From NCBI GenBank assembly GCA_023653095.1, contig JAMNXP010000004.1:1-64000 (forward strand): a stretch of 64,000 nucleotides of DNA. The letters run 5' to 3'. The notes beneath the pieces were generated by a model. That model saw only the letters and a program-made list of their open reading frames with translations. It made no database searches and had not been told where the DNA came from. This DNA is from Bacteroidia bacterium (GTDB lineage Bacteria; Bacteroidota; Bacteroidia; NS11-12g; UBA955). The translations under genes were made by a program, and so were the position numbers. Position 1 is the stretch's first letter; every line of letters begins with the position of its first letter. This document shows, one piece after another, positions 26,113 through 55,058 of this stretch.

Positions 26113-26147
26113 AACTCTAAACCCTAAACTTTAAACTCTAAACTTCC
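26113..26147. repeat. Heptamer array A (AACYYTA units)
   Basis: Five consecutive 7-bp units: AACTCTA, AACCCTA, AACTTTA, AACTCTA, AACTTCC. The array lies between convergent genes and provides the stop codon (TAG on the minus strand, 26140-26138) of the GNAT gene. Its reverse complement word (TTTAGAG) recurs in array F. Confidence 0.85.
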
Positions 26148-26662
26148 CTCAAATCCTTCACAAACCACAAATCAGTCTGCGGTGTACTTCCCAAAGGAAA
26201 ATCATTCTCTACTCCAGAGTTTACAAATCCGTGTTTCTGGTAAAATCCACGTGCCCGAAAATTGTATTCCCAAACCGATAAATACATCATCTCGTATCCT
26301 GAATCTCGAGCAAATTGGAGGGCAAAATCCATCAAAACATCCGCAGCACCTAAGCCGTGATAATCTTTTAAAAAGTAAAATCGAACCAATTCTACGCAAT
26401 TCAAACCCGCCAAAGATTCTAACGGACAAGCATGTTTATTGTTTATTCGCATGTATCCTTGAGCCGTGCCCTCGTCCTCTAGAAAAAAGAAATTATCAGA
26501 AGCATCTTGAAGCTCCGCCGAGCATTGCTCATCGTTGAAATACAAATCTAAAACACCTTTCATATCTTCCTTGGTACATGTACCCCCAAAGGTATCATCG
26601 AAGGTCTTTCGACCTAAGGTTTGGAGCAATTTTAAATCACCAATATCTGCGCGACGAATCAT
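26138..26662 (-). CDS. GNAT-family N-acetyltransferase
   Basis: A 174-residue acetyltransferase using acetyl-CoA. It shows the GNAT order: an N-terminal IRRADIGDLKLLQTLGRKTF, the LVRFYFLKDYHGLGAADVLMDFAL pyrophosphate-binding region (with GLGAA), and the C-terminal WEYNFRARGFYQKHGF. A TACATTTG -7 element (26674-26667, minus) lies just before the ATG. Its last codons and TAG stop fall within heptamer array A. The acceptor substrate is unknown. Confidence 0.85.
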   Translation of the reverse strand: MIRRADIGDLKLLQTLGRKTFDDTFGGTCTKEDMKGVLDLYFNDEQCSAELQDASDNFFFLEDEGTAQGYMRINNKHACPLESLAGLNCVELVRFYFLKDYHGLGAADVLMDFALQFARDSGYEMMYLSVWEYNFRARGFYQKHGFVNSGVENDFPLGSTPQTDLWFVKDLREV

Positions 26663-26708
26663 CGAACAAATGTAGATATTTTATTAAATTGCCCTTTCAA
26701 ATTAAACT

Positions 26709-27116
26709 ATGAATATCTCAAAACCCCTAAACATTAGCCTTTGGACTGCCCAAGGTTTATTAGCAGCAGCATTTGCTATGGCTGGATTTATGAAAATGAC
26801 GGTTTCTACAGAAATTCTCGCAGAACAAGGGATGACCTTTGTCGAAGATTATGGAGTTGGAATGGTAAGATTCATTGGAATTGCCGAGTTTCTCGGTGCA
26901 TTAGGACTAATTCTTCCTTTAATTCTGAAAATTAAACCCATCCTCACTCCTATTGCTGCCATTGGCTTGTCCATTATCATGGTATTGGCTTGCATTTATC
27001 ACATTTCAAACAACGAACCCTTCCTGCCAACCGTAGTATTTTTCGCGGCATCGGTTTTTGTTGCTTGGGGACGATTTAAGTCTCTGGAATTTAGAAATAA
27101 AAACAATGAACATTAA
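26709..27116 (+). CDS. DoxX-family membrane protein
   Basis: A 135-residue four-helix membrane protein. The LLAAAFAMAGFMKMT start, GMVRFIGIAEFLGALGLILP core and LSIIMVLACIYHI helix follow the DoxX pattern. It overlaps the following thioesterase-like gene by 11 bp and is divergent from the GNAT gene (46-bp gap). Confidence 0.85.
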   Translation: MNISKPLNISLWTAQGLLAAAFAMAGFMKMTVSTEILAEQGMTFVEDYGVGMVRFIGIAEFLGALGLILPLILKIKPILTPIAAIGLSIIMVLACIYHISNNEPFLPTVVFFAASVFVAWGRFKSLEFRNKNNEH

Positions 27117-27522
27117 TGACATTCCTTACAACCAACTATTGGGGATTCAGAATACAGACAACGATTTGTATCTTCTGAAACTAGATGAAAACACCAAATA
27201 TCACAATCACATTCAATCCATCCACGCAGCAGCCTTGTTTTCATTAGCCGAAGCAACTGCGGCTAAGTTCCTATTGATGAACTTTCATGAATTTGAAGGC
27301 AACGCCATTCCTCTGCTTCGGAAATCAGAAATCAAATTCAAGAAACCTACACCAGGGCCCGTTTATTCTAAAGCAATTCTATTGGAAGAATCGATAGAGA
27401 ATATATCTACTACTCTTCGTGAAAAGTCCAAAGCACTGCTAAAAATTCAAGTTCAATTATTCAACAACCAAGAAGAAACCATCATGTTTGGTGACTTTGA
27501 ATGGTTTGTTTCTTTGAAATAA
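27106..27522 (+). CDS. Hotdog-fold thioesterase-like protein (DUF4442/YiiD_C type)
   Basis: A 138-residue protein starting MNINDIPYNQLLGI. The segment IQSIHAAALFSLAEATAAKFLL is the central helix of hotdog thioesterases, and the FKKPTPGPVYSKAILLEES strands follow. The ATG at 27106 is preferred over an upstream in-frame start because it gives the usual length. Substrate unknown. Confidence 0.7.
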   Translation: MNINDIPYNQLLGIQNTDNDLYLLKLDENTKYHNHIQSIHAAALFSLAEATAAKFLLMNFHEFEGNAIPLLRKSEIKFKKPTPGPVYSKAILLEESIENISTTLREKSKALLKIQVQLFNNQEETIMFGDFEWFVSLK

Positions 27523-27617
27523 AAAATCTTAGTTCTGATTATTCTTAGACTGCTGCTAATTCCAAGATATGTCATAGAAAACAGAAAATAGCCTATATTT
27601 GACTTATCCCCCAATCA

Positions 27618-27937
27618 ATGAAATTTTTCACCAAATTTGTCGCCTTACTATTTATAAACGGACCCATCCTAATAACTAGTTTGTCTGCACAAACCGAGAT
27701 CGACGGACTTTTCATGGGCAAGAACAACTTCTGGGGGGATTTGATATACGAAAAAACGATATGCCGTTTATCAGCAATGATATGGAGTGGACACGAATTG
27801 GACTAAGCGGCAAAAAAGGTATTCCAAAAATATCTGGACTTAGCATCATGGGTGGTGCATTTTATACCTTATCTGGTAGAAATATGGGACAAAGTACAGG
27901 ATGGTCTGCAGGAGCTGTTTATCAATTTGAATTCTAA
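27618..27937 (+). pseudogene. Outer-membrane beta-barrel protein remnant
   Basis: A signal peptide (MKFFTKFVALLFINGPILIT) and an AQTEIDGLFMGKNNFWGDLIYEK start are followed by a frameshift in an A-run near 27757; one extra A would restore the frame. The correct frame then reads DMPFISNDMEWTRIGLSGKK to a C-terminal AGAVYQFEF, ending in phenylalanine as outer-membrane barrels do. The visible length (about 105 residues) is far too short for a barrel, so the middle is also deleted. A TATATTTG promoter element survives at 27594-27601. Its TAA overlaps the next ATG. Confidence 0.7.
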
Positions 27938-29474
27938 TGAAATTAAAGTTTAAGTTACTCATCGCCACGGCATTGTTTGCCATTTCTTGTCAACGTGAAA
28001 TAGACGAAAGAAATTCCTATTTCCCTCCCCTAAATCCTATAAATTGGATACCCATGCTGGCAATTGGCTTCCCATTTTATTGACAAACAACGAAGAGTTC
28101 GTTATTGAGGCACCTGAATTGGTCACATCAGCAAATTATAAATTAGAACTAAACGAAATCAAAAGTGCCCAAAATAGAAATTCAAAAGAGGATATCGATA
28201 ATTTAAATTACTGGCAAGCGGGCACCGTCTTAAGATGGAATGAAATACTCAGGGAATTGGTCGCAAAATACAATCTACCTTCCTACCAAAACGAAGACAA
28301 TACCTATCCCATCCCCAGCCCGAACAACCCGTTGGCCTACCCTTACTTCCCATTTGCAAATCCACCTTATGCAGCGCGCGCTTATGCCTATGTCAGCGCC
28401 GCTCAATACGATGCATTGGTTGCAGCTTACCACTACAAAGACAAATACAAACGATTGAGGCCTAATCAAGTAGATCCAAGTATTCAAGTTAAGGGTACGA
28501 ATTTCAATGATTTCTCATATCCTTGCGAGCAAGCAGTAGCAGCGGGTGCCGCTGTAGCAATGATGAGCCAACTTTTCCCCGGTGACATTGATTATTTGCA
28601 GAAAAAGCTCACTGATTGTATCAACAGCAGAATTTTTGCTGGAACAAATGTGCGCAGCGAAATAGAAGCAGGCCTTAAATTAGGTAAACAAGTGGCTCAA
28701 AAGTTCATCAATAGAGCTAGAAATGATCGCGCTGGAAAATCGGTAGGAACACCTGCAGATTGGGAACTATTTGTAACTACTACAATAAATAGAGGTGAGA
28801 TTCCTTGGAAAAGCCTCGAAACTCCAGCTAGGCCACCCATGTTACCATTGTTCGGTAAAACCATTGGATTTTTAGTTGATACCACAGAAGTTGTAAACGG
28901 AAGACCAGCACCTCCACCATCAATATCATCAGAGCAATTTAAAAAGGAACTCAACGAGGTCCTCGAAATCAGCCAAAATGCCACCCGTGAAAATATGCGT
29001 ATTGTTCATTTTTGGGGTGATGGTGCTGGTACTTACACTCCACCGGGCCATTAGAATGCCATCGCTTGTGAAGATTTCGTGCAGTTGAAATTTAGCGAAG
29101 TGCGCTGGGCCAGAAACTTAGCTCTCTTAAATATGGCCATGTTTGATGCCGCCATTTGTTGTTGGGACGCAAAATTCTACTATTTCAATCCCCGTCCAAG
29201 TCAAATCAACCCAAAAATCAAGACCCTAACAGGGGCGCCTAATTTCCCGGCATACGTAAGCGGACATAGCACCTTCAGTGGGGCTGCAGCGACAGTACTC
29301 TCACACATCAACAGCTCAAAATCATTTCAGTACAACTCTATGGCAGAAGAAGCAAGTTTGAGCAGATTATTGGGAGCCATTCACTACCGAAGCGACATTG
29401 AAGTGGGTTTGCAAATGGGCAAAAATATAGGCAACAAAGCGGTGTCAATAGCAAAAAATGATGGTGCGGAGTGA
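27937..29474 (+). pseudogene. PAP2-superfamily phosphatase / vanadium haloperoxidase-like lipoprotein, decayed
   Basis: The ATG at 27937 gives a lipoprotein signal (LLIATALFAISC). The frame then shifts near 28035 into LDTHAGNWLPILL and runs to a TAG at 29052-29054 after TYTPPGH. The same frame continues with NAIACEDFVQLKFSEVRWAR through the PAP2 motifs: PAYVSGHSTFSGAAA and SRLLGAIHYRSDIEVG. The TAG replaces a position usually tryptophan. Two lesions make loss of function likely. It was probably cotranscribed with the preceding outer-membrane gene. Confidence 0.85.
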
Positions 29475-29479
29475 GAGCA

Positions 29480-30031
29480 TTACAAGTCACCATTAATAGA
29501 ACTACACATTCCTAATCCTTTGTAAATTCCGTCTTGATTTTTTTTCGGGGGAAGTTCATTCTCAAACCGCATTCCAGCTTTTTTCATAACCTTCAGAGAA
29601 CCCAAATTATCCGTAAAATAAGTCCCAAAAATTCTCTGAGTTCCCATTTCTTCAAATCCATATTCCAATATACGCTTTAAACTTTCTGTAGCATAACCCA
29701 TTCCCCATAGCTCTTTAGCAAACCAATATCCTACTTCGAAAGAGGATGATTCTTCTCTCCAATGCAGACCAATTTCACCCGCAAAATCGAGCGTGCTCTT
29801 AACTTTGACACACCAAACAATTCCCTTCTCCTGTTCAAACAAGGTATTTAAAAAATCCAATCTACCTAAAGCATACTTATACGTATAAGGATAAGGTAAA
29901 TTGTTCGTTTGTATGCTAATTTCTTTATGGTTGCACTTTTCAACCAGTGAATTTAAATCCTCATATACCAATCTGCTAAAAATCAATCGTTCACTTTCGA
30001 GTATTGGAAATGTTGTTGGCCAAAGATGCAT
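29480..30031 (-). CDS. GNAT-family acetyltransferase, RimJ/RimL type
   Basis: A 183-residue acetyltransferase of the RimJ-like group. It has an N-terminal LESERLIFSRLVYEDLNSL, a GEIGLHWREESSSFEVGYWF strand pair, the ELWGMGYATESLKRIL acetyl-CoA site and a C-terminal NLGSLKVMKKAGMRFE. Targets are often N-terminal amino groups of proteins, or antibiotics. The 3' end is 5 bp from the decayed PAP2 gene. Confidence 0.85.
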   Translation of the reverse strand: MHLWPTTFPILESERLIFSRLVYEDLNSLVEKCNHKEISIQTNNLPYPYTYKYALGRLDFLNTLFEQEKGIVWCVKVKSTLDFAGEIGLHWREESSSFEVGYWFAKELWGMGYATESLKRILEYGFEEMGTQRIFGTYFTDNLGSLKVMKKAGMRFENELPPKKNQDGIYKGLGMCSSINGDL

Positions 30032-30132
30032 GTTGCTAAATTAACAATTTCATCTAAAACAAAAGACTTTTTAACGAATCGATTTAGGTTTCACGCGAGC
30101 GAAAGTTATTTTGTTGACGTATAAAAAAATAT

Positions 30133-30344
30133 TTGAGCATTACAACCATTGCCGCTGAAGGCGAAAAACAAGCCGTTATCATCGCCGCTCAAGGATTTGT
30201 AGAAGTTGAAAAATCAGAGCCGAAGGTGTTGCAAATGCTAACAAAACTGAAGCTTTCAAATCACTCTCCAACAGCAATAATTCAAAGGTGATCATCACCG
30301 ATGTCAAGACACCATTATTGGGTATTCCTGAGGGTGGTAAATAA
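30133..30344 (+). pseudogene. SPFH/prohibitin-like C-terminal remnant
   Basis: Residues TTIAAEGEKQAVIIAAQGF, then after a frameshift at about 30215 AEGVANANKTEAFKSL and KTPLLGIPEGGK with a TAA at 30342-30344, match the alanine/glutamate-rich coiled-coil end of stomatin/prohibitin (SPFH) proteins. The N-terminal SPFH domain is gone. Nothing else is visible between 30032 and 30414. Confidence 0.6.
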
Positions 30345-30414
30345 TTCCTTTGCGACTTTTCTCACAATCGAATTCTCCGCAACAAGGTAACTTTGCACCA
30401 TTAATTATAACATC

Positions 30415-30780
30415 ATGCCTACAATTCAATTAAACAGCGAAAAATTCAAAGAAGAAGTTTTTGATTATACCACCGAAAAAGAATGGAAATTCAAAGGCTC
30501 TCAACCCGCCATCATTGATTTTTACGCTGATTGGTGCGGCCCATGCAAAGTAGTTGCTCCTATCCTAGAAGAACTCAGCAATGAATTCCCGGAAATTACC
30601 ATCTACAAAGTGAATACCGAAATTGAGCAAGAATTGTCTTACGTCTTCCAAATCAAAAGCATTCCGAGCATTTTATTCATCCCCATGAACAAACAACCCA
30701 TGATGCAAGCCGGAGCAATGCCAAAAATGACCTTGAAGGAAATTATCGAAAAAGAACTATTAGCCGCCAAAGACCAATAG
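30415..30780 (+). CDS. Thioredoxin
   Basis: A 121-residue thioredoxin with the WCGPCK active site at 40-45 and the cis-proline segment SIPSILFI. A TAACTTTG -7 element lies at 30388-30395, 20 bp before the ATG. It acts as a cytoplasmic disulfide reductase. The last codons (K-D-Q) and the TAG stop are encoded by the first two units of heptamer array B, so the repeat has invaded, or been fixed at, the gene's 3' end. Confidence 0.92.
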   Translation: MPTIQLNSEKFKEEVFDYTTEKEWKFKGSQPAIIDFYADWCGPCKVVAPILEELSNEFPEITIYKVNTEIEQELSYVFQIKSIPSILFIPMNKQPMMQAGAMPKMTLKEIIEKELLAAKDQ

Positions 30781-30899
30781 CCAAAGACCAAAGACCAAAG
30801 ACCAAGGACCAAAGACCAAGGACCAAAGACCAAGGACCAAAGACCAAGGACCAAAGACCAAAGACCAAAGACCAAGGACCAAGGTCCAAAACCTAAAGT
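30767..30899. repeat. Heptamer array B (CCAAAGA/CCAAGGA units)
   Basis: Nineteen consecutive 7-bp units, mostly CCAAAGA and CCAAGGA, several in an alternating 14-bp pattern. Unit 2 (CCAATAG) contains the thioredoxin stop. The final unit (CTAAAGT) contains the stop of the convergent SRPBCC gene. The array therefore fills the whole intergenic space. Confidence 0.95.
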
Positions 30900-31309
30900 C
30901 CCTCGCAGTACTTCTTGAAATTATTCAAAATCATCTGCCAGCCCTGTTTTTGCATTTCGGCGGTATTCTGATCTTCAGGTGTGAATCTCTCTACTACTTT
31001 GACCCCCGCTTCTGTTTCGAAAAATTCCACCTCTACACTCCGACTTTCTCCTAAATCTTCACCCAAACTGAATACCACACGACTCATTGGGGTTATTTCG
31101 CGGTAATGTCCCCAGAAATCAAAAGAAAAAGAGCCGTCTTTGGCAGCCATGGCATTGCTGAACTTACCTCCTATTTGAAAGTCTACTTCAGACGATGGAC
31201 AATGCCAGTCATCGGAGGCGAAGTTCCAACCTGTAATGTGTTCGCTTGAATTAAAACAGTTCCAAACCTTTTCCAAAGGAGCTTCAACCAACACCTCTAC
31301 TTCTATCAT
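30893..31309 (-). CDS. SRPBCC-family (AHSA1-like) protein
   Basis: About 138 residues with a START-like helix-grip fold. The start IEVEVLVEAPLEKVWNCFNS, then HITGWNFASDDWHCP, a GGKFSNAM strand and the C-terminal QKQGWQMILNNFKKYCE helix are typical of the AHSA1 group. The start at MIEVEV (31309) fits the family better than ATGs upstream. Probable small hydrophobic ligand; function unknown. The TAG stop comes from array B. Confidence 0.85.
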   Translation of the reverse strand: MIEVEVLVEAPLEKVWNCFNSSEHITGWNFASDDWHCPSSEVDFQIGGKFSNAMAAKDGSFSFDFWGHYREITPMSRVVFSLGEDLGESRSVEVEFFETEAGVKVVERFTPEDQNTAEMQKQGWQMILNNFKKYCEGL

Positions 31310-31400
31310 TTGCATAAACAAAGATATTTATATTTGCCTTGCTATGAAAACCCTAAAACTACCGGTGAAGGCATGGCATTCGAAGAATACCACTATGGCT

Positions 31401-32210
31401 TCACTCGTTTTGTGATGCAGGTTCGCTAAGAAGGTTCAAACACTCCTTCACAATTGATTTCCGGGCTTCCATGAAATTCGGCGCACTCACTTGCTCAATA
31501 AATAAAGCAAAAATCAATCTGCCCTCTGGGGTGTTTTTGAAACCCACATACCAGCCCTGATCTATTCCATCAGATTGGGTCCAACCTGTCTTGGCACAGA
31601 GAGTAGAATCGCCTTCCACTCTCATAATTTGAAGCATATTTTTCTTTGTTTCGGGGGATATTTCAAGCTCGTCGGAACAAAATCTTCTTAAAAATGACAC
31701 TTGCTCAAAAGGAGTAATTCTAAAATCCCCAACCAACCAAAAGTTATCAATATTCCCAGAATCAATAATAATCAATGGAGCGTAATTCAACTTTTTCAAC
31801 CATTCCTGCATTCTCTCTGACCCAATCTTTCGAGCCACCTCCTGATAACAGGGTACGCAAGAACTTTGAAATGCTTCTCGGAGATTCATGTCGCGCTCCC
31901 AAATGGAAAACATCCGTTTTTGCCCGTCCCAATGAAATATAGAATCTACAGAGGGAATCATTCCGGTTTCAAGGCCAATCATGGAATTCGCAATTTTAAA
32001 GGTAGATGCGGGCAGATGTCCCAAAGCACCTCCGCGAAAATTATTGGAATAATAGGTTGATGTTTTATCGTTTAGCACCACAATGACACCTTTAACTTGA
32101 TGTGAATCAATGATACGCTGAAAATCATCTCTGTTTCTTAGACTGTTTTCCAAAACTTGAGCATTCGAAAAGCCCACTGCACATAAAAAAAGAAATGTTA
32201 ACAATCGCAT
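31401..32210 (-). CDS. Class D beta-lactamase
   Basis: A 269-residue periplasmic serine beta-lactamase with signal peptide MRLLTFLFLCAVGFSNAQ. The catalytic S69-T-F-K72 tetrad, S117-C-V (SxV motif) and the AKTGW (KTG) motif are present, as is the FWLVGDFRITPFEQV region typical of OXA enzymes. The usual YGN motif reads SGN here. Start chosen at 32210 to give a clean signal peptide 19 bp after the GH1 stop. Hydrolysis of penicillins is expected; spectrum is not predictable. Confidence 0.88.
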   Translation of the reverse strand: MRLLTFLFLCAVGFSNAQVLENSLRNRDDFQRIIDSHQVKGVIVVLNDKTSTYYSNNFRGGALGHLPASTFKIANSMIGLETGMIPSVDSIFHWDGQKRMFSIWERDMNLREAFQSSCVPCYQEVARKIGSERMQEWLKKLNYAPLIIIDSGNIDNFWLVGDFRITPFEQVSFLRRFCSDELEISPETKKNMLQIMRVEGDSTLCAKTGWTQSDGIDQGWYVGFKNTPEGRLIFALFIEQVSAPNFMEARKSIVKECLNLLSEPASQNE

Positions 32211-32229
32211 GCTCAAATCTAACGATATT

Positions 32230-33624: not shown

Positions 33625-33724
33625 TTTGCAAATCACTTTTTTATCTTTCAGCTTTAATGTTATCTTATTGATATTTAAACATTAATACGTTGTTTATAAA
33701 TCAAAATTAACTAACTTCGAAAAT

Positions 33725-34174
33725 ATGGAATTCAGAATTCTTCAAACCGATACTTCCGTTGATTTGGTAGAATATCTAAAATTCTATCTCTCCGAAAACT
33801 CCGATGCTCAAATCATCATTGGTTGTGACTCCAAAAATAGAGATTCTCTGACCATTTATGCCGTAGTAGTAGTTTTATATAAGCCTCGTCGCGGCGGACA
33901 TGTACTCTACTCAAAAAAGCGCATCCCCAGAGTGAAAGAACGATGGAACCGCCTTTGGCATGAAGTGGAAATCTCGGTTAATCTAGCCAATGAATTGGTA
34001 GAACTAGGACTTCCCAAACCCGTATTTATAGACCTTGACCTAAACCCAGACCCGCGTTTCAAATCAAACGATGTGGTCCGCGCTGCAGTGGGATTGGTTG
34101 AATCTATGGGATATGTAGCCAGAACCAAGCCCTACAGCTTGTGTGCCAGCTACGCTGCTGATAAAGTCTGTTAA
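33725..34174 (+). CDS. RNase H-like fold protein, DUF458 family
   Basis: A 149-residue protein. IIIGCDSKNRDSLTIYAVVVVLY carries the aspartate strand of an RNase H-like fold, VFIDLDLNPDPRFKSNDVV the second acidic motif and GYVARTKPYSLCASYAADKVC the C-terminus, as in DUF458/YkuK proteins. A weak TAACTTCG element lies upstream. Function is unproven. Confidence 0.75.
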   Translation: MEFRILQTDTSVDLVEYLKFYLSENSDAQIIIGCDSKNRDSLTIYAVVVVLYKPRRGGHVLYSKKRIPRVKERWNRLWHEVEISVNLANELVELGLPKPVFIDLDLNPDPRFKSNDVVRAAVGLVESMGYVARTKPYSLCASYAADKVC

Positions 34175-34176
34175 TC

Positions 34177-34208
34177 TATCGAGTATTTTTAGCTCGTATC
34201 GAGTATTT
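34177..34208 (+). promoter_or_regulatory. Two direct repeats upstream of the ABC exporter
   Basis: TATCGAGTATTT occurs at 34177-34188 and 34197-34208, 20 bp apart, i.e. about two helical turns. They lie just upstream of the TATGTTTG element at 34232-34239. A plausible activator or repressor site for the exporter genes. Confidence 0.4.
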
Positions 34209-34246
34209 CTTATCCGTAGTTACAAAACCACTATGTTTGCAAATCC

Positions 34247-36474: not shown

Positions 36475-36540
36475 AAGACTGTTCGTAAAGAATTTTGACC
36501 AATTCTTTGAATATTACACAACATTCAATAGATTGGCCCT

Positions 36541-37008: not shown

Positions 37009-37017
37009 TACCGGTTT

Positions 37018-37067
37018 TCGGTAATCGGTGATCGGTGATCAGCCGTAAGTCTCCGGCGAAGCCGTCA
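37018..37067. repeat. Heptamer array E with shared hairpin module
   Basis: Units TCGGTAA, TCGGTGA, TCGGTGA, TCAGCCG are followed by TAAGTC and the 20-bp module AGTCTCCGGCGAAGCCGTCA (37048-37067), which contains a CGGC/GCCG hairpin. The identical 20-bp module is in array D (54966-54985). The module contains the parC stop codon. Confidence 0.85.
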
Positions 37068-41658: not shown

Positions 41659-42597
41659 ATGAACGCCCAGGAACTCCAAAAAATATTGCATCAACCAAAA
41701 TCCATAGACGCCAGTACAGCGATGGAGTTGATGCAATTATGCAAGGAATTCCCCTATTTTGCCTGGCCCTTCGCAGCGCTCACTTCCTATCAATTAGAAA
41801 AAAACGACTTCCGTCTCGAAAATACCCTTCATCAAACTTCACTGCGCACCCACAACCGCCAATGGCTGCAAGATTACCTATTCAAACCAGCGGACAGCGA
41901 GCAGCTGACAGCGTTCAGCCGACAGCAATCAGCTGACAGTTTAGAGGTTAGAGAGGAGAGTTTAGAGCGAACAGCGGACAGCGGACAGCCTACCACCGAT
42001 CACCGACCACCGATCACCGATAACCGACCACCGATCACCGAAAATCTAGAAGCCATCAACCCTTCTTTAAATCCTCTTGAGCAAGACGTTATTGAATTAG
42101 AAATAGAAACCGTTGAAAATCTTGAAAGTCTTCCCATAGAAGAAACTGAAGAGGTTGAGCCTAAATCAAAACCCGTAAGATTGGTCGCTCCTGTGTATAA
42201 CTTGGAAGACCTTTTCCCAGCCCCTGAACCCGATGTACCCAAACAAGTGGCATCATCTGACTTTTATGCATGGTTGAATGCAGGAAGTGCACAAAAAAAC
42301 ACCCCTGCGAATAAACCAATTGAACGAAAAGAAGATCTTATTGAAAAGTTCTTGAAGACAAAGCCCAGTATTTCAAGGCCAAAACAGGAATTTTATACTC
42401 CTGAAAAAGCCATGAAGAAAAGCGAAGTACTGAACAATAAAATTGTAACTGAAACATTGGCAAAGATTTACACCAAACAAGGAAACTTCGAAAAAGCAAT
42501 AGATGCTTATGAACAGTTGAGTTTGAAATTTCCCGAAAAAAAGACGTACTTTGCAAACCTTATTGATCAAATAAAAAAAGAAAATAATTTATCATGA
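41659..42597 (+). CDS. TPR-like protein carrying a translated heptamer array
   Basis: A 312-residue protein. The N-terminal part (LMQLCKEFPYFAWPFAALTS) and the C-terminal tetratricopeptide pair (IVTETLAKIYTKQGNFEKAI, AYEQLSLKFPEK) are conserved-looking. Residues about 77-128 are the translation of 22 consecutive 7-bp units (array F), giving low-complexity sequence such as TTDHRPPITDNRPPITE. The frame stays open throughout. It overlaps secG by 4 bp, so it is in the lptE-secG operon. Confidence 0.75.
   Translation: MNAQELQKILHQPKSIDASTAMELMQLCKEFPYFAWPFAALTSYQLEKNDFRLENTLHQTSLRTHNRQWLQDYLFKPADSEQLTAFSRQQSADSLEVREESLERTADSGQPTTDHRPPITDNRPPITENLEAINPSLNPLEQDVIELEIETVENLESLPIEETEEVEPKSKPVRLVAPVYNLEDLFPAPEPDVPKQVASSDFYAWLNAGSAQKNTPANKPIERKEDLIEKFLKTKPSISRPKQEFYTPEKAMKKSEVLNNKIVTETLAKIYTKQGNFEKAIDAYEQLSLKFPEKKTYFANLIDQIKKENNLS
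41888..42041. repeat. Heptamer array F inside a coding sequence
   Basis: Twenty-two uninterrupted 7-bp units: CAGCNNN types, then GAGNNNA types (GAGTTTA), then CAGCGGA, then CCACCGA/TCACCGA. The words are reverse complements of those in arrays A, C, D and E. The register never slips over 154 bp. Confidence 0.95.
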
Positions 42598-42940: not shown

Positions 42941-42945
42941 TATAC

Positions 42946-44625: not shown

Positions 44626-44637
44626 ACTGCAAAGGTA

Positions 44638-46776: not shown

Positions 46777-46867
46777 ACAAATATAGGTTGCCTCACAAAT
46801 GGTCAATGGTTTTGTTAAGTGATTTTAGTCACTGCAAATCCACAAAAAAAACAAGAACTTCGCCTTT

Positions 46868-47272
46868 ATGAAAAATATCGCATTCGCATTTTTAATGACT
46901 GCATCAACTTTATACGCTGTTGCATGCAGTTCACCAACTGTAAACGTGGCAACTACAGAAAACTCTCCCGCAGCATCTGCTACCATCACCGAACAAGGCA
47001 GCAATCCAACTGACACCACCAAAAAAGGCAAAACCATCATTGTTGATGTGCGCACCCCCGAAGAATGGAACAACGACGGCCATGCAAACTGCACCACATT
47101 GATTCCCCTTAACGAACTCGAAAGCAAAATGGAAACCCTCCGTGGTTACGATAAAATTGTATTAGTATGCCGCAGCGGTGCTCGCGCCGGACGTGCCCAA
47201 GAACTCCTCCAAGCCAACGGCTTCAAAGACGTCAGCAACGCCGGTCCTTGGCAAAATGCGCCGTGTAAGTAG
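46868..47272 (+). CDS. Rhodanese-like domain lipoprotein
   Basis: A 134-residue protein with a lipoprotein signal ending AVACSS, a Thr/Ser-rich linker and a rhodanese domain (IIVDVRTPEEWNNDGHANC). The active-site loop is CRSGAR with C101. It probably transfers sulfane sulfur or senses redox at the cell envelope. Its TAG is followed within 6 bp by heptamer array C. Confidence 0.88.
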   Translation: MKNIAFAFLMTASTLYAVACSSPTVNVATTENSPAASATITEQGSNPTDTTKKGKTIIVDVRTPEEWNNDGHANCTTLIPLNELESKMETLRGYDKIVLVCRSGARAGRAQELLQANGFKDVSNAGPWQNAPCK

Positions 47273-47277
47273 TTTTT

Positions 47278-47578
47278 GGTCCTTGGTCCTTGGTCCTTGG
47301 TCCTTGGTCCTTGGACCTTGGTCCTTGGACCTTGGCTGACGGCACTCAGCACTCAACTCTCAGCTGTCGGCTGTCGGCTGTCGGCTATCGGCTGTCGGCT
47401 GTCGGCTGTCGGCTGTCGGCTGTCGGCTATCGGCTGTCGGCTATCGGCTATCGGCTGACTGCTGTCGGCTGTCGGCTGTCGGCTATCGGCTGTCGGCTAT
47501 CGGCTATCGGCTGTCGGCTGTCGGCCAAAGACCAAGGACCAAAGTCCAAAGTCCAAAGACCAAAGACCAAAGTCCAAA
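47278..47578. repeat. Heptamer array C: 43 units in perfect register
   Basis: The 301 bp divide exactly into 43 units of 7 bp. The word drifts along the array: GGTCCTT/GGACCTT (8 units), GGCTGAC, GGCACTC, AGCACTC, AACTCTC, AGCTGTC, then about 22 units of GGCTGTC/GGCTATC, then GGCCAAA and GACCAAA/GTCCAAA (8 units). The first and last blocks are reverse complements, so the transcript of either strand could fold into a long stem. It occupies nearly all the space between the convergent rhodanese and icmF genes. Confidence 0.97.
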
Positions 47579-47598
47579 GCTTTTAGCTTTTGACTTTT

Positions 47599-50500
47599 TT
47601 ACATATTCCTCCTGTACTGACCACCCACTTCAAACATCGATTCTGTGAGTTGGCCAAGGGTGCAGAATTTTGCGGCTTCCATGATTTGAGCAAACATATT
47701 TTCGTTGCGAATAGCGGCCATTTGTAATTCTTTGAAATTACGCTCCGCCTGTTCTCCATACATTCCTTTTACCAATTGTACGGTATTGATTTGCTGTTGC
47801 TTTTCCTCTTCAGTGCTTCGGATGACTTCTCCTGGACGCACCGTTGGGGATCCCTTACTGCTCAAGAACGTATTTACACCAATGATGGGATATTCACCCG
47901 TATGTTTTAAGGTTTCGTAATAAAGACTTTCCTCTTGGATTTTTCCACGCTGGTACATGGTTTCCATAGCACCTAACACTCCACCCCTTTCAGTAATGCG
48001 GTCAAATTCGGCCAATACTGCTTCTTCTACCAAATCAGTAAGCTCTTCAATGATGAATGCGCCTTGAATAGGATTCTCATTCTTCGCCAATCCCAACTCT
48101 TTGTTGATGATCAACTGAATGGCCATAGCACGACGCACACTTTCCTCTGTAGGAGTGGTGATTGCTTCATCGTAAGCATTGGTATGCAAAGAATTACAGT
48201 TATCGTAAATAGCATACAACGCTTGGAGAGTTGTACGAATGTCGTTGAAGTCAATTTCTTGGGCGTGCAAACTTCTTCCAGATGTTTGAATGTGATACTT
48301 CAACATCTGAGAACGAGCGTTACCTCCATATTTATTCTTCATGGCCTTTGCCCAAATTCTGCGGGCTACACGTCCAATTACAGCGTATTCAGGATCCACA
48401 CCGTTACTGAAGAAGAAACTTAAGTTAGGAGCAAAATCATCAATGTTCATTCCACGACTTAAGTAGTATTCAACATAAGTGAATCCATTGGCCAAGGTAA
48501 ACGCTAATTGAGAAATGGGATTAGCTCCTGCCTCAGCTATATGATATCCGCTGATACTCACCGAATAGAAATTTCTCACCTTGTTGTGAATGAAATATTC
48601 TTGAACATCACCCATCAAACGCAAGGCAAATTCAGTTGAGAAAATACAGGTATTTTGAGCCTGATCTTCTTTTAAAATATCTGCTTGAACCGTACCCCTC
48701 ACTTGAGAAAGCGTCCAATTTTTGATTTCTTGATAAACTTCCGCAGGCAATACCTGATCTCCAGTTACACCCAACAACATCAGTCCCAATCCGTCGTTAC
48801 CCGAGGGTAAATCCCCGTGATAAACCGGGCGGGAAAGTCCCTTAGACGCATAAATGGAATCAATCTTGGCATTCACCTCAGATTCTAGCCCATTTTTGCG
48901 AATGTATAATTCACACTGTTGATCAATGGCCGCATTCATGAAATAACCCAGCAACATGGGCGCCGGACCGTTAATGGTCATCGATACCGAGGTCATGGGG
49001 TCAGCCAAGTTGAAGCCGCTGTAAAGTTTTTTTGCGTCATCCAAACAACAGATGCTCACGCCAGAGTTCCCAATTTTTCCGTAAATATCTGGGCGCAAAT
49101 CAGGATTTCGACCGTAGAGAGTCACCGAGTCAAATGCCGTACTCAAGCGCTTGGCGGGCATATCTTGACTTACATAGTGAAAACGGCGATTGGTTCTTTC
49201 TGGACTTCCTTCACCAGCAAACATACGGGTGGGGTCTTCTCCTTCGCGTTTGAACGGATAAATACCTGCGGTGTAAGGAAACTGACCCGGCAAATTTTCT
49301 TGCAAACGCCAGTGTAAAATATCTCCCCATGCCTCGTATTTAGGCGTCGAAACTTTGGGAATTTGCGAGTGACTTAAGCTTTCGGTATGCGTTTTAATGC
49401 GCAATTCCTTGTCTCGAACTTTGAAAATATAATCTTCGTTGCGGTACTTTTGAGCTTCTTCGGCCCAATCAGAAATGAGTTTTCTATTTTCGGGGGACAG
49501 TTGCTCGTTTAATTGATCATAAAGTTGATTCAACTCAGAAGTGAGTGCATCAGATGCAGAACCGCTTTCCGAAATATGCTTCAACGTTTCGCTAATTGCA
49601 TACATACGCTGAGCAATCTTTTGCTGTGCCTTACCTGTAGAGTTATATAATCTATTGTTTTCGGAAATCTCTGATAAATACCTGTTTCTTGCTGGAGGAA
49701 TGATGAAAATCTTTTCGCTCAACTCTGTATCTGACTTCCAGTTACTACCCAAATCTGCACCTGTCTTTGCTGAAATAGTATCCATCAAACAACGATATAA
49801 ACTGTTCATACCTGGATCATTGAATTGAGAAGCAATGGTTCCAAAAACAGGCATGCTATCAACTTCGGCATCAAACAATTTGTGATTGCGCTGAAACTGT
49901 TTTCTCACATCCCTCAAAGCATCTAATGCACCGCGTTTATCAAATTTATTGAGCGCCACCACATCAGCATAATCCAGCATATCAATTTTCTCCAATTGAG
50001 TTGCTGCACCATATTCTGGAGTCATTACGTAAAGCGCTACGTCGCAATGTTCTGTAATTTGAGTATCGCTTTGTCCAATACCGCTGGTTTCAACAATGAT
50101 GAGGTCATATCCAGCAACCTTTAAAATGTCTACTGCATCGTCAATGTGCGAACTCATAGCCAGATTCGCTTGACGCGTGGCCATGGAACGCATGTAAACA
50201 CGAGGATGATTGATGGAATTCATTCGAATTCTATCTCCCAACAAGGCGCCACCGGTTTTTCTTTTTGAAGGATCGATTGAAATGATAGCCATTTTCTTAT
50301 CAGAAAAATCCAACAAGAACCTGCGTACCACTTCATCTATCAAACTGCTTTTTCCTGCACCACCTGTACCGGTGATTCCCAATACAGGTACTTTAATATC
50401 AGCAGCTTTATCGCGCATTTCGGCCAATACCGAAGCATGCAATTCAGAATAATTTTCTGCAGAAGTGATCAAACGGGCTATTGACATTGAGTCTCCCACC

Positions 50501-50982
50501 CTATCAACCACCTTTTTTACCTCACCGTTTAATTTATGCCCAGTAGGAAAATCGCTTTGTTGAACTAAATCATTGATCATGCCCTGCAAACCCATTTCAC
50601 GACCATCATCGGGAGAATAAATGCGAGTAATTCCATAATCCATCAATTCTTTGATTTCTTCAGGAAGGATAACTCCACCGCCTCCACCAAAGATCTTGAT
50701 GTGCGAAGCACCGCGCTCCTGTAGCAAGTCGTACATGTATTTGAAATATTCAATATGACCGCCTTGATAACTAGTCATGGCAATAGCATTTGCATCTTCT
50801 TGGATGGCAGTATCAACTACTTCCAATACGCTTCTATCATGGCCTAAATGAATCACTTCGCATCCTGTTGACTGGATGATTCTACGCATAACGTTAATCG
50901 CTGCGTCGTGTCCGTCGAATAAACTTGCCGCAGTTACAATGCGAACCTTGTTTACCGGAACATAGACTTGTTGCTCCAACAT
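47599..50982 (-). CDS. icmF: Fused isobutyryl-CoA mutase (IcmF)
   Basis: An 1127-residue adenosylcobalamin enzyme that rearranges isobutyryl-CoA and n-butyryl-CoA. The N-terminal B12-binding domain carries [11 protein letters not shown] with Co-ligand H25. A MeaB-like GTPase chaperone follows, with P-loop GTGGAGKSS near 205-212. The C-terminal mutase barrel (from about 560) includes [19 protein letters not shown]. This fused order is diagnostic of IcmF rather than methylmalonyl-CoA mutase. A promoter with almost no leader lies at 50988-51016. No cobalamin riboswitch is evident upstream. Confidence 0.93.
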
Positions 50983-50987
50983 AGCCG

Positions 50988-51016
50988 CAAATTTAACCCA
51001 AATTGGTCTTTTTCAA
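50988..51016 (-). promoter_or_regulatory. Promoter of icmF (leaderless type)
   Basis: On the minus strand, TTG (51016-51014), 18 nt and TAAATTTG (50995-50988) end 5 bp before the ATG. Transcription would begin at or next to the start codon. Confidence 0.6.
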
Positions 51017-51177
51017 TCTTTTTTTGGGGGATAACACCCCTTTTTGTGTTTAGTAACCATAACTCGTTCTTTAGAAGTTGTTTTTTACCGATTGTGACTC
51101 AAGTATGACGAACCTCGGGAAAACATATTTCTGAATTATGCGTCTTGTAGTTGTTATTTTTTATTGGTTTAGTTTGG

Positions 51178-51516
51178 TTAACGGAGATCCCGCAATAGCG
51201 GGATTTTCGTTATGTAGTGAATTCCAAGAACAGCCAAACCCACTATAAAAAAGGGTTGTGCAATAGAGCGAGTGGTATCGTTCATATAAAACTCTCCAAA
51301 CATCCAAATCACGTTAGCACAAATCCAAAACATCACGGCTAGATTGTGCGCAAACTCGGTCTTATCTGCTCTCGAATACCAAGCCAAATAGATTGCCAAC
51401 AATACTGTAGGCACTGCCATTGAAAGTCCCAAGATCCTAAAATCCATAATCCAAGCAAAATCCTTGACCAACCACAACACAATGTGGAAGTTCTCTTTCT
51501 TGCGTAAAGCGTGCAT
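51178..51516 (-). CDS. Small multi-span membrane protein
   Basis: About 112 residues with three or four hydrophobic helices: ILGLSMAVPTVLLAIYLAWY, FAHNLAVMFWICANVIWMFG and PFFIVGLAVLGIHYI. The start at MHALRKKENFHI (51516) is preferred over the ATG at 51543, which lies only 2 bp from the divergent GSCFA start. Function unknown. Confidence 0.7.
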   Translation of the reverse strand: MHALRKKENFHIVLWLVKDFAWIMDFRILGLSMAVPTVLLAIYLAWYSRADKTEFAHNLAVMFWICANVIWMFGEFYMNDTTRSIAQPFFIVGLAVLGIHYITKIPLLRDLR

Positions 51517-51545
51517 ATCAACAAAAATAGGACTATTTTGCATGC

Positions 51546-52298
51546 GTGAATCTGTTTTTCATGGGGTCTTGTTTTTCAACTGAAATGCATCAACGCGCCC
51601 TCCAATTAGAAATCCCTTCGTACTCCAATCCCTTTGGCACCATCTTTTCGCCTACCGCATTGGCCGAAACCTTAGACCAGATCTATAAACTAGAAGTGCC
51701 TCCCTTTTACGAATACAAAGAGAACTTCCATTGTTTGTTGTTTGCAAATAGATTTCAAAATCCCTCAAAAACCGAACTCACAGAACAGATATCAACCGTT
51801 TTAGCTGAATCAAAACAACAATTAGAAGTCGCCACTCATATTTTTATCACCTTAGGCACGGCCACCATTTATGAGCACGTCGAATACAAAAATTGGGTAG
51901 GAAACTGTCAAAAATTACCGCAAAATCAGTTTACCAAACGACAATTGACTTTTTCCGAAATCAAAACGTCCCTCGAAAAAATCAAAAATACCGTCCCCAA
52001 AATCAATCCCAAAGCCAAACTCATTTTTACCGTTTCGCCAGTGAGACACCTGAGAGATGGACTATTGATGAACAGCGTTAGCAAGGCGCTTCTAAGGGCT
52101 GCGGTGCATGAAATTTGCACAGAATCACCTGAGCAAATAGAGTATTTCCCCAGTTATGAAATAGTTGCGGAGGAGCTTAAAGACTTGAAATATTACAAAG
52201 CTGATCAAGCTCACCCCACCGAAGAGGCCATCAATATTGTGTTTGAACGCTTTAAAGAAACCTATTGTTTCTCAGGAACCAATCTATCTAGCAACTGA
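51546..52298 (+). CDS. GSCFA-family SGNH hydrolase-like protein
   Basis: A 250-residue protein of the GSCFA family. The signature FMGSCFS at the N-terminus carries the putative nucleophile. Later THIFITLGTATIY, FTVSPVRHLRDGL and the C-terminal DQAHPTEEAI (catalytic Asp/His-like) follow the SGNH layout. The start is GTG at 51546; an in-frame stop 15 bp upstream excludes a longer N-terminus, so it is shorter there than many relatives. It overlaps the convergent lipoprotein gene by 37 bp. Confidence 0.85.
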   Translation: MNLFFMGSCFSTEMHQRALQLEIPSYSNPFGTIFSPTALAETLDQIYKLEVPPFYEYKENFHCLLFANRFQNPSKTELTEQISTVLAESKQQLEVATHIFITLGTATIYEHVEYKNWVGNCQKLPQNQFTKRQLTFSEIKTSLEKIKNTVPKINPKAKLIFTVSPVRHLRDGLLMNSVSKALLRAAVHEICTESPEQIEYFPSYEIVAEELKDLKYYKADQAHPTEEAINIVFERFKETYCFSGTNLSSN

Positions 52299-52885
52299 TC
52301 CACGTGTTCACTAACTCTTTGATAAGAGGGTTCTACCGTATCCAACCGGTCTGTGATGTCAATGGTTTTCAGCTCGCACTCGTCAAGATCTACTTGAAGG
52401 CCCTTCATTTCTTCCTTGAAGCCCTCCAAATCTTGATCAAAATCTCCCTTTTTTACCCTAGTCTCCAGTCCTTTTAAATTGTAAAAAGCATTTTCGGCCA
52501 TTAAAACTGCGTTCTTGTATTGGTTTGCGGCCGTTTTATACAATCTGAAAGTTTCGTTATAGATGTTAAACTGAAGTTTATCGTCTTCAGTCAGTGCATC
52601 ACCCGGAATAAAATTCGCTCTGATTCTTTGAGCTGCCATTTCCGTTTTGCGCTCTTCAAACTCATCAATTTCAAAATGGAATTGCCCTCTTATGTCGTTC
52701 AATTGAGCCCACGCCGAATCCAATTTCAATTGCATAGCCTTGCGAAGTTCCACTTTTGAATCAGACTCTGACTGACTGTTACCGGTACAAGCAACCAAAC
52801 CAAACGTCAAAATAATTGACAAAAAACCCAACAGAATCCAAGGGTTTCGTGATTTTTGGCCTATTTTAGTGTCGAAATTATGCAT
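52262..52885 (-). CDS. Coiled-coil lipoprotein of unknown function
   Basis: A 207-residue protein starting MHNFDTKIG, with hydrophobic helix ILLGFLSIILTFGLVACTG ending in a lipobox cysteine, followed by a fully helical, charged body (LDSAWAQLNDIRGQFHFEID and EGFKEEMKGLQVDLDECEL) predicted as coiled coil. The start codon shares the palindrome ATGCAT with the divergent chromate transporter start. The 3' end overlaps GSCFA by 37 bp. Confidence 0.7.
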   Translation of the reverse strand: MHNFDTKIGQKSRNPWILLGFLSIILTFGLVACTGNSQSESDSKVELRKAMQLKLDSAWAQLNDIRGQFHFEIDEFEERKTEMAAQRIRANFIPGDALTEDDKLQFNIYNETFRLYKTAANQYKNAVLMAENAFYNLKGLETRVKKGDFDQDLEGFKEEMKGLQVDLDECELKTIDITDRLDTVEPSYQRVSEHVDQLLDRLVPEKQ

Positions 52886-54118
52886 GAGTCCACAAACATA
52901 CAAAAAGGCAAGCAATTTCAGTTTCTGAAAACCGTTTTGTGGCTCGGTTTGACCGCCTTTGGCGGCCCTCAGATGCATCTTCCCCATTTCAAAAAAAGAC
53001 TCATTGAACGTAAACGCTTCATCACTCAAGAAGACCTTATAGAAATCACCGCTTTTTGCAATTTATTGCCTGGCCCCACCACCACACAAACCATTACTAC
53101 TGTTGGATTAAAATTGGGCGGCCCTAGGCTAGCCATCCTTACCGTTCTATTTTGGGCATTGCCTGGCGCAGCACTCATGTTATTGTTGGCCCTGTCTCCC
53201 AAATTTTTATCTGCCCACCAACTTCAATACATATCCGCCACGGTGGTAGGATTTATGGTTTATGGCTTCCTTAGCATGAGCCAATGGATGGAAAAAACTC
53301 CTTTGAACTGGGGTATCCTCATTGTTTCGGGCATCCTTGGATTTGCCATACATACTCCATTAATCTTCCCCATTGGCGTTGTATTGGCAGCCCTCTTTAG
53401 CGCGAAATTTGGCAAACATTCAGGTCCAAAAACCATCCTTCCAAAATCTGAAATCAAATGGAGAAACCTTACGGTATTTTTCATCATTTTCACGGCTGTA
53501 GGAGCTGGTGGACTGTTCCTCAGCAAATACAAAACCCAATCAAAATGGTTACAACCCGTTGTGTATTTTGAAAACACCTATCGAATGGGAGCCCTTTCAT
53601 TTGGCGGAGGTAACGTATTGGCAGCCATGACTATGGAACAATATGTTCACCATAAAAAGAGAATGACTCTCGATGAACTGAACACTGGAATTGGCGCCAT
53701 TCAAGCCGCTCCCGGCCCTAACTTCAACCTAGCCGTTTACACCAACGCAGTCGCTATGAGAAACGCCGGTTATCAAAAATCAGGTCAAATTTTAGGAGGA
53801 CTTATAGGACTCATTGCCGTTTTTCTGCCTGGTATTCTCTTAGTTTTATTCGCCTATCCTATTTGGTCTATTCTCCAAAACTACTCTGGACTACAAAGAT
53901 CTATTCCCGGTATTTTCGCCGTTTCAGTGGGCTTCATCTTAACCGCATCTCTCATTCTCTGTGAGCAACTCCTTATCAACATCCAAAATCTTCCCTCATC
54001 AAAAATATCTACACACCTTTTTGTTCTTACATCCACAGTAGTTATGCTCTACTCCAAGAAATTCTCCACACCTTTGGTCGTTTTATTCTCCATCCTCGTA
54101 GGTTGGCTGCTTCCTTAA
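52880..54118 (+). CDS. chrA: Chromate transporter (CHR family, two-domain)
   Basis: A 412-residue membrane protein with two homologous CHR halves. The first has LGLTAFGGPQMHLPHF and FCNLLPGPTTTQT. The second has MGALSFGGGNVLAAM and IGAIQAAPGPNFNLAVYTN. These are the paired FGG and PGP signatures. It probably exports chromate or another oxyanion. ATG at 52880 is within ATGCAT shared with the divergent lipoprotein; an in-frame TTG at 52856 is the alternative. Confidence 0.9.
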   Translation: MHESTNIQKGKQFQFLKTVLWLGLTAFGGPQMHLPHFKKRLIERKRFITQEDLIEITAFCNLLPGPTTTQTITTVGLKLGGPRLAILTVLFWALPGAALMLLLALSPKFLSAHQLQYISATVVGFMVYGFLSMSQWMEKTPLNWGILIVSGILGFAIHTPLIFPIGVVLAALFSAKFGKHSGPKTILPKSEIKWRNLTVFFIIFTAVGAGGLFLSKYKTQSKWLQPVVYFENTYRMGALSFGGGNVLAAMTMEQYVHHKKRMTLDELNTGIGAIQAAPGPNFNLAVYTNAVAMRNAGYQKSGQILGGLIGLIAVFLPGILLVLFAYPIWSILQNYSGLQRSIPGIFAVSVGFILTASLILCEQLLINIQNLPSSKISTHLFVLTSTVVMLYSKKFSTPLVVLFSILVGWLLP

Positions 54119-54144
54119 GTTAAATTTTCATTATCTTCGTGACT

Positions 54145-54843
54145 ATGAGTTTCGGGGCTTTTCGGGGGATGTTCGCTCTCTCTGCATTCCTTCTTTTTAG
54201 CAATTACCTGTTTGCTCAGCGCAAACCCCAAAACAATAATCCGTACATTCTATTCACTGGCTTAGTTCTAACTTCAGATAGCTTAAAACCCATTCCTTTA
54301 GTTAGCATCAAAAGCTCCCGCCGCGGACTCATTGGCTACTCCGATGACAACGGATTCTTTGACGTGGTTGTCAGAAAAGGCGACACAGTCTATTTTGTTC
54401 AAGTCGAAAAAGTCAGCTCTTTTCACGTCATTCCAGACACACTATCCAGCAATCGTTATTCGGTAGTAAAACTGATGACCCAAGATACCATTCACTTGTC
54501 GGCTATCTTCATCAAAGCATTACCTTTGAAAACCCTTTTCAATCACGAATTCGTCAACCGTGACATTCCCGATGACCCACTAGAAAGAGCCCGCAAAAAT
54601 CTAGAAAACGAAGCCGTTAAAGAAGAACTTCGACAAAGACCCGCAGATGCTGCTCAAGCTCAAGCGCTTTTGGCACGCAACAGAGCTGAACAACTCTACT
54701 ATTATAACCAAATTCCTCCCCAAAGATATTTGAGCCCAACCGCATGGATGCAATTCTTCGAAGCTTGGAAACGCGGAGATTTCAAGAAAAAACCCGCAAA
54801 AAAGAGCACTTACGTAAGTCCTTATTCGCCCGTTACGAGGTAA
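54145..54843 (+). CDS. Secreted carboxypeptidase-like regulatory-domain protein
   Basis: A 232-residue exported protein. A signal peptide (MFALSAFLLFSNYLFAQ) is followed by a beta-sandwich resembling CarboxypepD_reg: FTGLVLTSDSLKPIPLVSI, GLIGYSDDNGFFDVVVRKGD. The second half is helical and charged (ARKNLENEAVKEELRQRPAD), ending in a lysine-rich tail. Such proteins are common in this phylum; role unknown. The stop is followed by array D. Confidence 0.7.
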   Translation: MSFGAFRGMFALSAFLLFSNYLFAQRKPQNNNPYILFTGLVLTSDSLKPIPLVSIKSSRRGLIGYSDDNGFFDVVVRKGDTVYFVQVEKVSSFHVIPDTLSSNRYSVVKLMTQDTIHLSAIFIKALPLKTLFNHEFVNRDIPDDPLERARKNLENEAVKEELRQRPADAAQAQALLARNRAEQLYYYNQIPPQRYLSPTAWMQFFEAWKRGDFKKKPAKKSTYVSPYSPVTR

Positions 54844-54852
54844 ACAGTTTTT

Positions 54853-55058
54853 AGTGATCGGTGATCGGTGATCGGTGATCAGCCCTCAGCACTCAGCTAT
54901 CAGCTATCAGCACTCAGCTATCAGCCGCTACGCGAAGCGTAAGTCCCATAGTCCCATAGTCACATAGTCTCCGGCGAAGCCGTCAGCCGTCAGCCGCCAG
55001 CCAAAGACCAAAGACCAAAGACCAAGACCAAAGACCAAAGACCAAAGACCAAAGACCT
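54853..55058. repeat. Heptamer array D with two hairpin modules
   Basis: Units AGTGATC, three GGTGATC, AGCCCTC, AGCACTC, AGCTATC (mixed) and AGCCGCT run in one register (54853-54929). Then come hairpin CGCTACGCGAAGCG, 8-bp units GTCCCATA, module AGTCTCCGGCGAAGCCGTCA (54966-54985, identical to array E), GTCAGCC units, and eight AAAGACC-type units (one is 6 bp). The last bases contain the TAG of the convergent epimerase gene. Confidence 0.93.

Follow-up and report, generated by a model that had tools for sequence, protein, structure and literature searches.

Bacterial arrays of tandem heptamers, such as the short tandemly repeated repetitive (STRR) sequences of heterocystous cyanobacteria, have been reported without an accepted origin. 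We know of no function for the stand-alone S23/23S-IVP genes (PF05635), which encode four-helix-bundle proteins. Here we bring the two together for a set of heptamer arrays in the window, i.e. the whole stretch of 64,000 nucleotides analysed (positions 1 to 64,000 of contig JAMNXP010000004.1, assembly GCA_023653095.1, of a Bacteroidia bacterium). Judged by the portions available of each, the closest papers are Rehm 2015, MacGregor 2015 and the report on the Coxiella intervening sequence (IVS). The Coxiella 23S rRNA IVS (PMC4990558) is a small element, inverted at its ends, whose open reading frame (ORF) of the S23 family is preceded by tandem heptamers; their number, two or three, depends on the strain, and the IVS has been called selfish. 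Unlike the IVS, the elements described here lie between protein genes, carry repeat arms on both sides with units of 7, 8 or 10 nt, and have apparent gene-less derivatives across the genome; the window arrays are likewise flanked by protein genes instead of being inserted in 23S rRNA.

Three further systems are similar in part. The GGGNATC heptamers known from Xanthomonas and Nostoc (PMC4692102) share with our arrays the period of 7, inverted pairs, variation in unit number and scarcity in divergent gaps; as here, they occupy the coding strand immediately after stops and the non-coding strand before starts. A single G-quadruplex-forming word family was studied there, whereas our words are mixed and the main ones (GGTGATC, TTTGGTC, GGCTGTC) lack GGG, i.e. 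the G-tract per unit. The TAACTGA and mixed heptamers of Beggiatoaceae, Cyanobacteria and Bacteroidetes (PMC4679880) are also intergenic, with shorter, array-free orthologous gaps, but the Beggiatoaceae arrays lie mostly upstream of starts. A previous reading of the window from its letters alone (the sequence-only reading) had regarded a mixed-word version specific to convergent genes as new; mixed heptamers had in fact been noted in Microcystis (PMC4679880), as had the strand geometry of such arrays in Xanthomonas/Nostoc (PMC4692102). Heptamer-derived bacterial satellites (PMC6749651) are dispersed and heptamer-built like our arrays, and transposition of the non-coding satellites was proposed. 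In their available portions, PMC4692102 makes no link to S23 genes, PMC4679880 proposes no element gene and PMC6749651 names no mobile gene. Within the openly licensed literature, heptamers beside an S23 ORF were found only in the available text of the Coxiella IVS paper (PMC4990558).

Our analysis suggests that the arrays are probably, if far from certainly, the gene-less arms of a small selfish S23 (PF05635) element. A whole element would consist of a mostly G-rich repeat arm, a short leader, the PF05635 gene and a mostly C-rich, inverted second arm. The comparison covered the 14 genomes of the genus (G000 to G013), where G000 (75% complete) is the genome of the window, with the window on contig C6 and C1 as another contig, and G002 (99% complete) is the nearest relative. 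The trail to the family leads through a G002 gene between two arrays, which matches PF05635 (23S_rRNA_IVP), a four-helix-bundle protein. As the repeat-flanked gene is located outside the window, the sequence-only reading had no means of noticing it. The genus holds 16 copies, two of them partial, in 10 of the 14 genomes; no match was found in G001, G012 and G013. Copies were scored as two-sided if short tandem repeats lay at most 160 bp from the gene on each side. Ten of 14 full-length genus copies were two-sided (seven with period 7, two with period 10, one with period 9); L327, whose left array is more than 160 bp away, stands outside the strict period-7 count of 7/14. Plasmid records, which extend the family to other phyla, were obtained by tblastn with the G000 protein (20 records, 16 examined) and with a Calothrix relative (42 records, 10 further ones examined). 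Here 13/16 copies (12 period 7, one period 8) and 9/10 copies (four period 7, five period 8), respectively, were two-sided, i.e. 22/26 pooled and 16/26 at period 7 alone. The plasmid arms are mostly G-rich before the gene and C-rich after it, e.g. GGGAACA and TGTTCCC in Nostoc edaphicum. In three 50-kb stretches of cyanobacterial plasmids, scored at period 7, all three PF05635 genes were two-sided but only 1/122 other ORFs, a neighbour. Under a slightly different criterion, again at period 7, the background among genes was 15/859 in G000 and 3/296 in G002 (each including its PF05635 gene), 0/146 in G005, 0/170 in G007 and 0/125 in G008. At least three inverted 9-mers were common to the own flanks at 24/30 PF05635 loci, compared with 94/870 mismatched flanks; the second plasmid set, counted separately, gave 6/10. 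The arms of the intact G000 copy are made of the genome's own words, GGTGGTC on the left and GATCACC on the right. A scan of viral contigs gave 20 pattern matches, none related to the PF05635 query.

The length of the unit clusters on the protein tree. In G004 one PF05635 copy lies between decamers and another between heptamers. On a tree of 39 PF05635 proteins unit length changes 8 times, against a shuffle mean of 13.3 (0/200 shuffles as low); five of the seven copies with 8-bp units fall in one branch (support 88/72) and the two copies with 10-bp units are sisters (94/78). Because near-copies among the rows (in the plasmid sets L341/L342 and L359/L360) help clustering, this result is supportive and not proof. 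Element gene coordinates and period labels on the tree were assigned by hand: at the threshold, L344 and L349 have repeats on a single side and L327 needs a distance above 160 bp to pass; L335 carries no period label although the two-sided test gave period 9, and L354 was omitted. The leaders of L325 and L334 carry TATCGCCAAGG about 30-45 bp before the ORF, by eye a possibly conserved motif. One PF05635 protein (L171) resembles Avd of diversity-generating retroelements in matching the bAvd-like family PF22296 (E 1.5e-5, 25.9 bits, below the family cut-off of 40); unlike our elements, the avd gene annotated on the plasmid of Anabaena sp. 90 does not figure in the set of repeat-flanked ORFs.

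The solo arrays of G000 show the polarity of such arms. Their words fall into classes A (GGTGATC), B (GGCTGTC/GGCTGAC), C (TTTGGTC) and D (TTTAGAG), with G/T-rich words at the left edge and complements at the right, so that the G/T-rich strand runs inward from both edges, as in an S23 element. Among 70 arrays of at least 70 bp, 42 were inward and one opposite (24 with ends alike, 3 ties). Edge words of classes A, C and D pointed inward 85 times and outward four times; class B (consensus RGCYGWC), which is self-complementary, shows no edge polarity. Array-free gaps have no G/T skew, and ordinary gap composition is thereby rejected as its source. A scan of genome contigs with three tandem copies of GACCAAR yielded at least 109 stretches in many phyla, 80 of which were taken as loci; among the matches listed, 63 arrays gave 28 inward to 4 outward, with 30 alike at both ends and one tie.

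The following features of the window (positions of the whole stretch) are concerned; the arrays are given without strand.

26113..26147, short heptamer array of AACTCTA/AACCCTA words, overlapping the 3' end of a minus-strand gene in the convergent gap 26057/26138
30767..30899, heptamer array of GACCAAA/GACCAAG words between a plus-strand thioredoxin-family gene and a minus-strand AHSA1 gene
37012..37067, short array of GGTAATC/GGTGATC followed by the mini-hairpin motif CGGCGAAGCCG, in a convergent gap
41888..42041, heptamer array within the plus-strand ORF 41659-42597 (weak TPR match)
46868..47272, plus strand, rhodanese-domain gene beside the largest array
47276..47598, the largest array, with CTTGGTC, then GGCTGTC, then GACCAAA words, occupying the entire convergent gap
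47599..50982, minus strand, fused methylmalonyl-CoA mutase gene beside the largest array, with relatives found in the genus
54169..54843, plus strand, gene without Pfam match beside the next array
54854..55057, array of GGTGATC, AGCTATC/AGCACTC, mini-hairpin motifs, GTCAGCC and GACCAAA, occupying the entire convergent gap
55057..56091, minus strand, NAD-dependent epimerase family gene on the other side of that array

Two loci connect such arrays with the element. The first is the gap filled by the largest array (47276-47598): its orthologues in G005 and G010 contain whole PF05635 elements, with the genes at G005:C27:593-904 and G010:C217:9329-9646, both beside the mutase gene. At this place G002 has an array built of other words, G008 and G001 show what looks by eye like a terminator hairpin, and the gap of G003 measures ~10 bp. 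At C1:635190-635425 G000 retains the left array and leader of the G002 element, with 96% agreement over 80 bp; the gene is missing, and an array follows. A motif of this leader recurs, by eye, in the intact G000 copy; the leader therefore belongs to the element, and loss of the gene from an element is the best reading of C1:635190-635425, the sole direct case. By extension the window's own arrays would be gene-less arms, too; as no PF05635 gene stands between arms in the window, they can be filed only as a gene-less derivative. Such elements would insert into gene gaps and then lose the gene, leaving the arms behind. The leftover arms would expand and contract by 7-nt slippage, swap words between loci, and survive where promoters and coding sequence are unharmed, for the most part at 3' ends. 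In the G/T-rich strand that runs inward from either edge, the inverted-arm geometry would have persisted.

Several points weigh against this reading. Neither an insertion event nor a target duplication is in evidence, the direction of change at C1:635190 is a matter of interpretation, and the window yielded no PF05635 remnant. G000 holds one intact and one broken PF05635 copy in its 75% complete assembly, compared with dozens of arrays; four element leaders were tried, and apart from the flank of the intact copy they match only a single array region of that genome. Near arrays in the 80 cross-phylum loci, only 2/71 short ORFs are PF05635 among the matches listed. G006 and G011 carry PF05635 without clear heptamer arms, and the two-sided test was failed by 4/14 genus copies and by 3/16 and 1/10 plasmid copies. 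More than one period was tried at each locus, while for the plasmid background period 7 alone was counted; L331 is two-sided only at the lower threshold and L335 via a period-9 match that may be chance. The arms of L343 read alike, and the gene-nearest 3' repeats of L367 are not inverted. In the solo arrays of G000, finally, the two arms are unmatched to each other (9 vs 13.3 expected), unlike element arms, and they share one grid, which plain decay does not predict. Long perfect palindromes are unstable, and their loss may account for the unmatched arms.

The arrays themselves are real. Tandem Repeats Finder reported period-7 arrays at 26113-26144, 30767-30890, 41888-42041 (several rows), 47276-47579 and 54854-55057, and a lag-7 scan added a short one at 37012-37040, which bears out the six arrays of 7-bp units seen by the sequence-only reading. 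Five of them do lie between convergent genes, the sixth (41888-42041) being inside a plus-strand ORF, and the common vocabulary is as it was given. The arrays at 26113 (4.6 copies) and 37012 (29 bp by lag-7) are weak. The array at 30767..30899 contains the final codons and stop of the thioredoxin-family gene and reaches the stop of the AHSA1 gene; the one at 37012..37067 is flanked by a DUF4199 gene and a gene of the DNA topoisomerase IV-gyrase subunit A family. Seven is indeed special: at a single threshold, lag 7 gave nine segments in 400 kb of C1 and six in the window, and lags that are not multiples of 7 gave none, except lag 22 (one in C1) and lags 8, 20 and 27 (one each in the window); lowering the threshold brings out a few segments of other lags. 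No segments came from a Markov resample of C1. Tandem 7-bp units without enrichment of other periods are what STRR or simple sequence repeats show. Words switch in register, as claimed, with 195/198 junctions in the dominant phase against about 29% at random (junction types seen at least five times), and one phase is also kept in 39/55 block pairs separated by at least 14 nt. Mini-hairpin motifs (GCGAAGC) occur in or beside arrays at 37045-37067 and 54925-54990 of the window and in other G000 arrays; CGGCGAAGCCG has nine copies in G000 (0.08 expected), five of them at most 60 bp from an array, and all four copies of ACGCGAAGCGT lie as close.

Specificity for convergent gaps, the other part of the claim, holds as a strong preference in G000 and not as a rule. 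Genes were called with a dicodon model. In 778 kb (C1 whole and C6 1-124 kb), arrays occupied 19/97 convergent, 8/432 codirectional (nine arrays) and 1/96 divergent gaps (Fisher p ~4e-9 and 2e-5, computed with 9/432 for codirectional), with four further arrays scored inside genes and one at an end. In a wider set of 1.11 Mb, in which 14 of 16 stretches were picked for containing array words, the tabulation of flanking genes that had been proposed gave 33 convergent, 28 codirectional, nine intragenic and eight divergent among 81 array regions, plus three at stretch ends; some intragenic calls may be spurious ORFs over open repeats. The arrays are thus not exclusive to convergent gaps, and with 9/81 intragenic they are mainly intergenic, like STRR or simple sequence repeats. 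According to distances read from the gap table, they usually begin no more than ~20 bp from a stop codon, and in many cases they occupy the full gap. Across other phyla there is no clear convergent preference (17/86 intergenic arrays in the 80 loci vs 76/466 gaps, by crude gene calls, which placed 37 further arrays inside genes and nine at ends). The region C1:50000-325000 of G000 is array-free over 275 kb, of lower GC, and its convergent gaps are mostly shorter than 20 bp; array-rich regions have higher GC.

The vocabulary is nearly species-private. Three tandem copies of RGCYGWC occur in 2/108 genomes of the order (G000 and G002), and GACCAAA in three copies with at most two mismatches in 3/38 genomes, G000 included. 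The heptamers of G002 are mainly different ones, those of G005 and G010 are AT-rich, and no 7-bp arrays were found in 153 kb of G008 or 240 kb of G007. In G007 (L247, L250, L252) degenerate 10-bp arrays (GTTTATAAAG-like) follow many genes, and its PF05635 gene likewise adjoins 10-bp repeats. G002 has arrays at 4/5 orthologous G000 array sites, compared with 1/11 array-free convergent gaps. A comparison of array lengths, which had been suggested for strains, showed between relatives differences of whole units or a complete change of words. Two pairs of G000/G002 arrays with 91-95% identical flanks have the same words and differ by whole units, and in two pairs with 80-85% identical flanks every word is different at the same site. 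At the 3' end that bears array 37012 in G000, the array of G002 is made of different words; array 54854 is absent from G002 (orthologous gap ~18-24 bp). A weak period-7 stretch at the start of G002 contig C23 (L241 8-94), scored intragenic, possibly lies in the same gene as ORF 41659-42597.

The unit-number differences between relatives (C1:630023), the pattern of positions tolerated and the fact that most arrays have no PF05635 gene nearby would equally be expected of plain slippage satellites, in which 7-nt units grow by replication slippage, recombine among loci and survive in tolerant 3' gaps, with PF05635 merely inserting there. That the polymerase sets the unit length is an idea cited in PMC4692102. 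We regard this explanation as unlikely, though the strongest of the rivals: it does not account for an inward polarity that is present in G000 and other phyla and absent from array-free gaps, for periods 7 and 10 at different PF05635 copies of one genome and the clustering of periods on the protein tree, or for two-sided repeats found at the PF05635 gene and hardly elsewhere in the three plasmid stretches. A variant with slippage on mini-hairpins (2-bp stem plus triloop, 7 nt) was rejected, as there was no enrichment (80 distinct words, 0.30 vs 0.335 shuffled). The arrays had also been proposed as bidirectional transcript ends; that they are selected to stop both convergent transcripts in place of intrinsic terminators we consider improbable. 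What stands is the location: in G000 terminators were detected at 10/62 convergent ends with arrays (shuffled 21) vs 26/52 without (shuffled 3; p 0.0001), and G008 and G001 have their terminator-like hairpin in the very gap that is filled by the largest array. Array-free convergent ends elsewhere gave 21/30 in G007, 14/16 in G008, 12/32 in G005 and 6/20 in G002, and array ends 3/16 in G002 and 1/6 in G005, no more than shuffles. Because shuffled arrays yield many false terminators, these counts are read only as no excess in arrays. Arrays thus stand where intrinsic terminators are missing, but searching them revealed no terminator structure (GC-rich hairpin with T-tract). Nor are hairpins between the halves selected: the two halves of one array fold less strongly than halves swapped between arrays (0/198 permutations as weak), and together with the unmatched arms this rejects hairpin selection. 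Moreover, arrays occur in codirectional, divergent and coding positions as well, in G002 the gap that corresponds to array 54854 measures only ~24 bp, and the terminator detector fires also in array-bearing orthologous gaps of G002, G005 and G010.

Two further mechanisms have far less in their favour. Templated addition of heptamers to broken DNA ends, telomerase- or DRT10-like, followed by joining of both ends would likewise give inward G-rich strands and the head-to-head polarity, and DRT10 shows that bacterial reverse transcriptases can make tandem repeats (PMC12632851). It is nevertheless highly improbable, given the common grid across both arms and the missing enzymes: RVT_1 was found in 1/14 genus genomes and is absent from the array-bearing G002, so that addition by a reverse transcriptase was rejected, and Ku was found in 0/14, which rejects Ku end joining. 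The sole RVT_1 match (L224, G000:C11:326-886) is a partial reverse transcriptase near a contig start. Repetitive extragenic palindromes (REP) and bacterial interspersed mosaic elements (BIME) are mosaic 3'-end repeats that are dispersed in trans by a REP-associated tyrosine transposase (RAYT), the protein whose gene they flank, and in this respect they offer an analogy. Spread of our arrays as REP/BIME-like elements by such a Y1 transposase would agree with the mosaic words and with the 3'-end and convergent preference known from REPs (PMC1525189). Of all explanations weighed it is the least credible: the unit here is 7 bp and not a 20-40 bp palindrome, heptamer units are not enriched for short palindromes, and Y1_Tnp matched in 1/14 genus genomes (G012), with no RAYT in G000 (75% complete) or G002, and RAYT-driven spread was rejected.

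The S23 element reading, if true, would explain the inward G-rich strand and the turnover of vocabulary between sister species, and would describe a very small mobile element without recognisable transposase; it joins the bacterial heptamer arrays to the S23/IVP genes. The unit of 7 would then be a property of the element, because other clades of this protein are accompanied by units of 8 and 10. A wider version is tentative and in our view rather doubtful: S23/IVP proteins might drive widespread transposase-free selfish elements, the protein (perhaps with a leader RNA) setting the length and writing of the arm unit (7, 8 or 10 nt by clade), and orphan STRR and heptamer arrays of many phyla might be their gene-less arms. 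In the cyanobacterial plasmids L340, L346 and L349, S23 elements lie next to CRISPR-associated genes: two are placed between cas6 and cas4, the third between cas10 and a gene of the Cmr3 family.

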